Below, one piece after another: positions 58,170-60,476 of a stretch of 64,000 nt of DNA. The notes below the pieces were generated by a model. That model saw nothing but the letters and a program-made list of their open reading frames with translations. It did no database searches and was not told the origin of the DNA. Source of the stretch: Parvibaculaceae bacterium Mf 1.05b.01 (GTDB lineage: Bacteria; Pseudomonadota; Alphaproteobacteria; Parvibaculales; Parvibaculaceae). The stretch is taken from positions 806,001-870,000 of the forward strand of contig BAOK01000001.1 in NCBI GenBank assembly GCA_000509225.1. The letters are read 5' to 3'. The position numbers and the translations under genes are program-made. Numbering within the stretch: position 1 is the stretch's first letter; every line of letters begins with the position of its first letter.

Positions 58170-58637
58170 TCACGCAATCTCGAAGATGGCTTCGACTTCT
58201 ACCGCCACGTCGAAGGGCAGTGACGGCGCGCCGACGGCGAAGCGGGCATGTTTGCCTTTCTCGCCAAACACCTCAACCATGAGATCGGAGGCACCGTTCA
58301 TGACGGCCGGGTGGTCGCCGAACTCAGGCACTGAATTCACAAAGCCGCCCAGCTTCACGCAGCGGGTGACACGATCGAGGTCACCGTCAAGCGCGGCAGA
58401 CAATTGGGACAATATGTTAATTGCACAGAGGCGGGCTGCAGCTTTTGCTTCGTCGACATTGAATTTGTCACCGACTTTGCCCTGGAACTCCAGACCGCTT
58501 GGCCCTACAGGGACCTGGCCGGAGATGAAGACAAGATTGCCTGAAATGATGTAAGGCGAGTATGTCCCTGCCGCAGGTGTTGGTTTTGGAAGGGTGATCC
58601 CCAGTTTGCTCAACTTGGCTGCAGTACTTTCACTCAT
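58170..58637 (-). CDS. RidA-family enamine/imine deaminase-like protein
   Basis: The 155-aa protein belongs to the YjgF/RidA family in its longer form (about 150 aa): SGNLVFISGQVPVGPSGLEF, CVKLGGFVNSVPEF and the C-terminal HARFAVGAPSLPFDVAVEVE with the conserved Arg. RidA hydrolyses reactive 2-aminoacrylate and imines; the subfamily's activity is not certain here. It starts the operon RidA-DUF482-HIT-propeller-VOC. It is divergent from the agmatine-deiminase-like gene across 90 bases with no clear shared site. Confidence 0.9.
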   Translation of the reverse strand: MSESTAAKLSKLGITLPKPTPAAGTYSPYIISGNLVFISGQVPVGPSGLEFQGKVGDKFNVDEAKAAARLCAINILSQLSAALDGDLDRVTRCVKLGGFVNSVPEFGDHPAVMNGASDLMVEVFGEKGKHARFAVGAPSLPFDVAVEVEAIFEIA

Positions 58638-58727
58638 TGTAACATCCTGTCAGTGATTTTTCTTTCTCAGCAGTTTACGGCACAATGGACCTTCTGCGCA
58701 GTGTTTTGAGTCGGATTAGGGGACCTG

Positions 58728-59780
58728 ATGGACGATTATTTGCACTCTCCGGTGGGTGAGGGGTTTTTTCTGCCGGGAGAGTGGGAGCCGCACAAGCGGT
58801 GTTGGGTGCAATGGCCGTCGCGAGCTGATCGCTGGCGAGATTTGCTGCCCCAGGCTTATGCTGAAGCGGCAGAAGTTATACGTACAATTGCGGAATACGA
58901 GCCGGTGACGGTGATCGTCCGGGACGAGGATGTGTCTCAGGCGCGATTTGCTTGTGGTCGCAACAAAAATGTTCAGTTTCTTGAACTCCCAATTGATGAT
59001 TGCTGGGCGCGGGACACAGCGCCAATGTTTCTAAGCAATGGCGAGGACGCTGTTGCCGGCATTGCCTGGCAGTTCAATGGCTGGGGAAATTCTGTTCATG
59101 GGATAGCGAGAGATGCAGCCCTCGCTGAACGGGTTCTCCGACACGAAAACATGAAGAGCTTCGCGGCCGACATGGTTTTGGAAGGCGGCGCCATCAGTGC
59201 TGACGGATACGGAACTGTGCTCACAACAGAAGAGTGTCTTCTCAATGAAGACCGCAATCCGGAATTGACCCGGCCTGAGATTGAAGAGCGACTTGCGCTC
59301 TTTCTGGGGGCTCGGAAGGTTGTGTGGCTTGGCGGCGGACTGGCCGCAGACCCAACACAAGGGCAGGTTAGTCGAGTTGCTGTGTTTGCCAGGCGAGATC
59401 GCGTGCTTGTTTCAGAAGTATCAGACCCTGATGATTTCGACCGGGCGACATTGGAGGACAATAAGGCTCATTTGGAGGCGGCTATCACAGCACGAGGTGA
59501 CAAGCTCACGATCACGTCAGTGCCTCTGCCGCAGAATCCACAAACGGGCTTTGATGGGAAACCGCTGGCGTCAAACTATTTGGATTATTATGTGGCAAAT
59601 GGTGCGGTGATCGTTCCCGCGTATGGAGATCCGAACGACACTGTCGCTGCCTCGATCATCGGCGCGGTCTATTCAGATAGAAAGGTCGTGCAGGTGCCAA
59701 CACCTGTGCTTGCCAAAGGGGGAGGTGCCATCAGGCGTTTCACCCAGCCTGAACCGGCTTTACCTGGTAGCAGCGGCTGA
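58728..59780 (+). CDS. Agmatine-deiminase-like protein lacking catalytic residues
   Basis: The fold is clearly that of the agmatine deiminase/PPAD family: start with LPGEWEPHKRCWVQWP, then PIDDCWARDTAPMF, MVLEGGAISADGYGTVLTTE and CLLNEDRNP, and length 350 aa. The active site has changed. The usual NGHVDN, with catalytic His and Asp, reads QGQVSR (Gln213, Ser215). The usual C-terminal GGGNIHCITQ, with the Cys nucleophile, reads GGGAIRRFTQ (Arg336, Arg337). The reading frame is intact with no frameshift, so it is either a pseudoenzyme, a new function, or early decay. Real agmatine to N-carbamoylputrescine activity is unlikely. The ATG has GGGGACCTG before it. Confidence 0.85.
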   Translation: MDDYLHSPVGEGFFLPGEWEPHKRCWVQWPSRADRWRDLLPQAYAEAAEVIRTIAEYEPVTVIVRDEDVSQARFACGRNKNVQFLELPIDDCWARDTAPMFLSNGEDAVAGIAWQFNGWGNSVHGIARDAALAERVLRHENMKSFAADMVLEGGAISADGYGTVLTTEECLLNEDRNPELTRPEIEERLALFLGARKVVWLGGGLAADPTQGQVSRVAVFARRDRVLVSEVSDPDDFDRATLEDNKAHLEAAITARGDKLTITSVPLPQNPQTGFDGKPLASNYLDYYVANGAVIVPAYGDPNDTVAASIIGAVYSDRKVVQVPTPVLAKGGGAIRRFTQPEPALPGSSG

Positions 59781-60476
59781 GCGGTTTTCGGTCGCTTTGC
59801 GTTTTTCGCGATACATTGCCCGATCTGATTGGGCGAGAAGTTCTTCAAATGCGGTTTCGCCCGTGTAGTTTGCAAGACCCATGCTGGCCCGTACTTGAAC
59901 TTTTTTCCGTTTCCAGGTCACTTCGAGACTGTTCAACTCTTCCAACATCACGCGCGCGCGTTTGCGTGCAGGAATGTGTTCTGCGCGCACGAAGAGGACT
60001 GCAAACTCATCGCCACCAAGGCGTGCTGCAAAGTCTGTCGCCCGAATGTTTGTGCCCAACTGTCTTCCAACTGCGCGGAGAACTTCGTCGCCGGCTGCGT
60101 GCCCAAGAGTATCGTTGATGGGTTTGAATTCATCCAAATCAATGTAGGCAAGGACACCCGTCTCTTTATGGCGTGAGGAGGTTTGCAGTTCACGGCGCAC
60201 TGCATCATAGAAACCCCGCCGGTTGAGAAGGCCGGTGAGTTCATCTGTTTTTGCCAAAGATTCCAACGTACGCACACGGGCGTTGAGTTCCGCAATGCGC
60301 TGTTCTGCCTCGGCTGCATATTCAAGGGCTTTGACGACAACAGTGTCAGGATCTACCGACTCCTGTGCTTCTCTGAGCAGTTCGCAGCGAAGGCGCATCT
60401 CCATGGTGTCAATGACCGGATGAATGCTCTCGCTAAATGTGTTCGCAGCTCGCTCATTTGATATCTGCTGGCCCAT
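59760..60476 (-). CDS. Diguanylate cyclase (GGDEF domain)
   Basis: The 238-aa protein makes cyclic di-GMP. A helical N-terminal region of about 70 residues includes a probable coiled coil (VKALEYAAEAEQRIAELNAR). The GGDEF domain follows, about residues 75-235, with LDEFKPINDTLGHAAGDEVL, an intact GGDEF at 154-158 and the inhibitory I-site RxxD at 145-148 (RATD), exactly five residues before GGDEF. No membrane segment is seen, so the sensor is cytosolic or the protein is recruited. Its end overlaps the convergent aguA-like gene by 21 bases. Confidence 0.93.
   Translation of the reverse strand: MGQQISNERAANTFSESIHPVIDTMEMRLRCELLREAQESVDPDTVVVKALEYAAEAEQRIAELNARVRTLESLAKTDELTGLLNRRGFYDAVRRELQTSSRHKETGVLAYIDLDEFKPINDTLGHAAGDEVLRAVGRQLGTNIRATDFAARLGGDEFAVLFVRAEHIPARKRARVMLEELNSLEVTWKRKKVQVRASMGLANYTGETAFEELLAQSDRAMYREKRKATENRSAAATR

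Follow-up and report, generated by a model that had tools for sequence, protein, structure and literature searches.

Organization of the locus

The window, a stretch of 64,000 nucleotides of Parvibaculaceae bacterium Mf 1.05b.01 to which all positions refer, contains a gene for a protein resembling agmatine deiminase (AguA), flanked by a RidA/YjgF-family gene and a GGDEF diguanylate cyclase gene (Table 1). The AguA-like ORF begins with ATG and its translation contains no internal stops, in agreement with the sequence-only reading, in which the frame was open over its full 350 codons. The region shared with the RidA gene contains two blocks conserved among the congeners which are possibly a shared regulatory site; a sigma-70 consensus scan of this region returned no match.

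Table 1. Features of the AguA-like locus (positions in the window)
Feature	Position	Strand	Evidence or remarks
RidA/YjgF-family gene	58170..58637	-	Head-to-head with the AguA-like gene in several alphaproteobacterial families
RidA/AguA-like shared intergenic region, 90 bp, with conserved blocks AGTTTACGGCACAATGG and GCGCAGTGTTTTGAG	58638..58727	.	Congener alignment
Probable ribosome-binding site AGGGGA	58718..58723	+	Almost identical in all seven congeners; intergenic alignment
AguA-like pseudo-deiminase gene (probable), PF04371 pentein	58728..59780	+	350 aa; translation, profile match, AF2 model
W93-A94-R95-D96, channel Trp and guanidinium-binding Asp, kept	59004..59015	+	AgDI alignment; residues 88-99 invariant in seven congeners
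E152, kept	59181..59183	+	Homologue alignment; kept in 138/139 homologues, including dead ones
P209, replacing the acidic residue for the terminal amine of agmatine	59352..59354	+	Alignment; PMC6447857
Q213, replacing the catalytic His (AgDI H218)	59364..59366	+	Alignments
S215, replacing the catalytic/guanidine-binding Asp (AgDI D220)	59370..59372	+	Alignments; congener codons AGT, AGC, TCA
D286, replacing the catalytic Asn (AgDI N306)	59583..59585	+	Alignments; N in 117/117 intact homologues
R336-R337, replacing His-Cys (AgDI C357 nucleophile)	59733..59738	+	Alignments
GGDEF diguanylate cyclase gene	59760..60476	-	Tail-to-tail; 21-bp overlap with the 3' end of the AguA-like gene (59760-59780)

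Both neighbours had been pointed out in the sequence-only reading, and they belong to an old conserved gene order. In those species of the host's genus (g1) that were examined this order is ClpA-like, SGL/NHL-type, HIT, FemAB-like, RidA, AguA-like, GGDEF, 2-hydroxyacid dehydrogenase, EipB-like and DinB-like. In families f1, f121, f126 and f5 the RidA gene stands head-to-head to the AguA-like one, and in f67 it is adjacent or nearby; the GGDEF gene is tail-to-tail with the AguA-like gene in several of these five families. Judged from these gene orders, the RidA/AguA-like/GGDEF arrangement is old and does not depend on the AguA-like protein being intact.

Family assignment and predicted fold

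The protein matches the PF04371 (PAD_porph) profile with 330.7 bits, against a gathering score of 25, over profile positions 2-321 of 321. An AF2 model built from ten sequences (pLDDT 87.3, pTM 0.89) gave TM values of about 0.90 to the agmatine deiminases 1xkn, 3h7k, 2jer and 6nib, from which an intact fold can be predicted with good confidence. The full-length profile match and the model together place the protein in the PF04371 pentein family. It scores below the cut-offs of the AguA equivalog TIGR03380 (283.9 vs 381.8) and of NF010070 (288.3 vs 483).

Residues of the reaction centre

Residue correspondences were taken from a residue by residue alignment with Enterococcus faecalis AgDI (2jer), of which the mechanistically relevant residues are C357, H218, N306, D220, D96 and W93 (PMC4487231). 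H218 aligns with Q213, D220 with S215, N306 with D286 and C357 with R337, such that none of the catalytic Cys, His, Asp and Asn residues of TIGR03380 and NF010070 is present. The guanidinium-binding Asp96 and the channel Trp93 align with identical residues, and both are kept in all seven congeners. Of the reaction centre itself only this Asp, which holds the substrate, remains. The replacement of His, Asp and Cys had been recognized earlier from the motifs QGQVSR and GGGAIRRFTQ; both motifs are present, but that description was incomplete in that D286, R336 and P209 were not reported. The last of these replaces the residue which in Medicago AIH is Asp220, the acidic residue that binds the far amine of agmatine (PMC6447857), and agmatine itself may therefore be less favoured as a ligand.

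In PPAD each of the changes C to A/S, H to A/N, D238 to A/N and N297 to A is inactivating singly (PMC4487231). From its replacements we infer that the AguA-like protein has lost agmatine-deiminase activity. Since the Asn and Cys of PPAD are in contact (N297 to C351, 3.3 Å; PMC4487231), the Asp and Arg found at 286 and 337 could pair, and an Asp286-Arg337 ion pair is presumed.

For comparison 139 homologues were used, with one genome per species, mostly from Alphaproteobacteria and some of them MAGs, drawn by similarity to the AguA-like protein. His, Asp and Cys are present in 117 of these, and all 117 also have the Asn, which was no criterion in defining them as intact. A displaced active site, with an intact His and Cys elsewhere, had been named as an observation that would overturn the sequence-only reading; when every His and Cys of the protein was checked against the 117 intact homologues no credible replacement was found. 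C92, which adjoins W93, was considered as a relocated nucleophile and rejected, this position being Cys in the seven congeners but also in two intact homologues (L037, L038).

Distribution in the genus and ancestry

The gene is present at the same locus in all seven g1 genomes examined, with 60-100% identity. The residues corresponding to D220, N306, C357 and the His preceding the latter are replaced in all seven, and H218 in six. The His is retained in G006, the most distant and early-branching species, whose genome is estimated to be 9% contaminated and whose AguA-like gene contains ambiguous bases. The replacements recur in six congeners, of which only the most distant retains the His, and are therefore neither chance nor error; a sequencing error or local frameshift is ruled out by seven genomes having open frames and replacements.

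Genus g5, of the same family, possesses at the same locus an orthologue with a fully intact site, and one such protein (L018) exceeds the AguA equivalog cut-off (384 vs 381.8). Species tree (support 99-100) and gene tree both make g3 the sister genus of g1; the g3 orthologues show Cys to A, Asn to G and Trp93 to R, and retain His and Asp. The simplest reading is that catalytic constraint was relaxed in the common ancestor of g1 and g3, the later paths differing. Judging from locus and trees, the AguA-like gene is vertically inherited from an intact RidA-linked ancestor, the form of which persists in a related genus.

Selection on the clade

A clade that keeps Q, S and R at these places with a dN/dS well below 1 had been suggested as the mark of a conserved pseudoenzyme, and such a clade was found. 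For the five closest species a codon model gave an omega of 0.052, with lnL -3477.2 as compared to -3923.0 at omega = 1 (2 delta lnL about 890); IQ-TREE values over seven species (0.057-0.058) agree with this separate model, and the six neighbouring genes have comparable values (0.020-0.081). Among species that share the residue, the codons at the replaced sites vary synonymously only: Q213 is CAG or CAA, S215 AGT, AGC or TCA, R336 AGG, CGA, CGG or CGC, and R337 CGT, CGC or CGG. Residues 88-99 and 148-155 are invariant throughout g1.

Amino-acid change on the g1 stem amounted to 0.41 substitutions per site vs 0.20 in neighbouring genes, and on the g3 stem to 0.83 vs 0.29; the g1 crown is only slightly faster. 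A branch-model stem omega of 1.96 was discarded, as the stem had collapsed (t 0.19), the g3 branch stood at t 20 and synonymous sites were saturated. Twenty-eight columns are at least 95% invariant among the 117 intact homologues, of which the clade replaces 213, 215, 286, 336 and 337, together with 316 (Pro) in part. It keeps the remaining near-invariant columns, which include W93, R95, D96, E152, R176 and the GGG loop. Since the columns replaced belong almost solely to the reaction centre, change has been concentrated there. With the catalytic residues lost, the gene and its predicted fold retained and purifying selection acting after the loss, the AguA-like protein is very probably a conserved pseudoenzyme.

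Recurrent losses among homologues

Cys or His is missing at several positions of the tree, in 21 of the 139 homologues (approximately 1 in 7, a fraction that applies to this similarity-drawn sample and is not a family-wide rate). The loss lineages are g1 with g3; f67; f116 with f82, a grouping that is uncertain owing to long branches; f37; and f34. At least five separate loss lineages were counted in this way, and thus at least four besides g1 with g3. The omega values of the loss groups tested were 0.05-0.09, which places these groups under purifying selection, and those of intact controls 0.03-0.10; f34, a single sequence, lay outside these tests. Asp286 has arisen in g1, f67 and f116, Arg337 in g1 and f116, and Gln213 in g1 and f67.

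In genus g170 of f67 (11 species) His has become Gln and Asp has become Asn in 10 of 11, Asn has become Asp in 11 of 11, and position 337 is Cys or Ser. The genes of this genus (L088, L092, L095 and L171-L178) are RidA-linked, and the nested L095 has His and Asp again, with Ser. In a further lineage (L125 and L128, from genomes G257 and G345) His and Cys have both become Arg, Asp has become Gly and Asn has become Asp, with an omega of 0.065. In f37 (L099, L106, L111, L079) the Cys is replaced by Ser or Ala, a new Cys is found two residues on (IHSICLPQ) and Asp has become Glu; these proteins may possess a shifted nucleophile instead of a dead site.

It could be that RidA-linked alphaproteobacterial proteins of the agmatine-deiminase type have repeatedly been made non-catalytic, with convergent changes in the pocket. 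We regard this generalization as unlikely. If true, it would mean that they share a second, catalysis-free function older than the losses, perhaps amine or guanidine sensing in a nitrogen or imine-damage pathway linked to RidA.

Deiminases and polyamine genes of the host

The host has a single other PF04371 protein, PPAD-like and 25% identical to the AguA-like protein, in which His, Asp and Cys are intact and the N-terminus resembles a signal peptide. The gene for this distant protein (L004 1285-2469; host C2:1730151-1731056) adjoins an apparent sulfite/nitrite reductase gene. A second, complete aguA, which the sequence-only reading had proposed to look for, is therefore not present in the host, nor was canonical AguA found in the five other congeners searched (one of which, G004, is only 88% complete); congener G002 also carries an intact canonical aguA. 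A profile search of the host genome revealed no AguB above the cut-off, and a canonical agu operon was rejected on this ground. The host does have one arginase/agmatinase-family protein, and putrescine may therefore be made another way. The canonical agmatine-deiminase route was thus not seen in the host, and, as there is neither another AguA-type deiminase nor an AguB above cut-off, an active partner for the AguA-like protein appears unlikely. No active paralogue sharing both genome and compartment with the AguA-like protein was seen, the only candidate being the distant protein with the signal-peptide-like N-terminus.

Proposed role and alternatives

We consider it likely that the AguA-like protein is a conserved pseudoenzyme, vertically inherited, which has lost catalysis and is now a non-catalytic binding or scaffold protein. 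An intact RidA-linked enzyme of the agmatine-deiminase type would have been passed down vertically, the covalent chemistry being lost in the ancestor of g1 and g3 (Cys and Asn), and Asp and His then in g1; renewed strong purifying selection would have followed on what was by then a non-catalytic protein. The pentein would fold normally, with its channel wall towards cationic substrates (D91, W93, D96, W119, E152) preserved, while the channel floor would be rebuilt by the Asp286-Arg337 ion pair at the former nucleophile position, where the Cys-amidino intermediate could not form. What would be left is small-ligand binding, or service to a partner protein as a rigid scaffold. Small-ligand binding is put forward tentatively as the job of the protein; scaffolding is conceivable to the same degree. 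D96 and E152 may be structural, since the dead homologues keep them just as the intact ones do, and their retention is therefore no proof of ligand binding.

The sequence-only reading had left a choice between a pseudoenzyme, a binding protein and an enzyme with a new chemistry. The first two are favoured by the selection on the clade, the lack of a second AguA and the lack of a displaced site; for the third no positive evidence emerged. A Cys-independent chemistry, in which D96, E152, D286 and the Arg pair act on a different substrate, would fit the polar pocket and its new invariant residues (Q213, S215, D286, R336, R337) under purifying selection, and the origin of Asp286 in three separate lineages suggests selection for something specific. 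Against this, no new conserved His or Cys and no obvious metal-binding cluster were found in the protein, the known deiminases of the agmatine-deiminase family rely on Cys (PMC4487231, PMC6447857), and an Arg in place of the nucleophile would presumably occupy the guanidinium site. We judge such an enzyme improbable.

It is considerably less probable that the protein is a regulatory subunit paired with an active deiminase paralogue, in the manner of prozyme with AdoMet decarboxylase or MetCb with MetCa. Such pairs are known from the metabolism of polyamines and guanidines (PMC5201418, PMC11271267), and the intact canonical aguA of G002 would suit it, but the host and the five other congeners searched offer no canonical AguA as partner, and the PPAD-like protein of the host is probably in another compartment. 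A decaying gene heading for loss, as would be indicated by a dN/dS near 1, accords with the fast stems of g1 and g3 but is contradicted for the g1 clade by the low omega, the open frames in seven species, the synonymous-only change at replaced residues, the conserved ribosome-binding site and the invariant segments, and hardly deserves consideration.

Comparison with known systems

A limited search of the open-access PMC literature for pseudoenzymes of the PF04371 family, or for a link of the family to RidA, gave nothing relevant. The closest characterized relatives of the AguA-like protein are AguA and agmatine iminohydrolase (TIGR03380; E. faecalis 2jer, Arabidopsis 3h7k, Medicago 6nib/6nic), with which it shares the same pentein fold over its full length (32-36% identity in structural alignments), W93, D96, E152 and the GGG loop. 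It differs from AguA in that all four reaction-centre residues are replaced, in its score (284 vs 382), and in the lack of an AguB above cut-off and of an agu operon. Annotation would name such proteins agmatine deiminase, and name-based reconstructions of polyamine pathways would be wrong for the 21 of 139 without Cys or His.

The RidA-linked AguA-type orthologues of g5 and of families f121, f126 and f5 are found at the same locus or head-to-head with RidA and are about 40-52% identical; unlike the AguA-like protein they retain H, D, N and C. Related genera carry at the same locus either an intact or a dead orthologue, which provides a clean natural experiment on the catalysis-free role of this RidA-linked protein. 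The partly dead proteins of g3, f67 (g170, g280), f116, f82, f37 and f34 resemble it in having losses among Cys, His, Asp and Asn while keeping D96, E152 and R176, but the sets of residues are different and mostly independent; f67 often keeps the Cys, and f37 and f34 keep the Asn. The trypanosome prozyme (PMC5201418) and the metformin hydrolase subunit MetCb (PMC11271267) have different folds and are paired with an active paralogue, of which the present host has no close one, but they are likewise dead homologues retained by selection.
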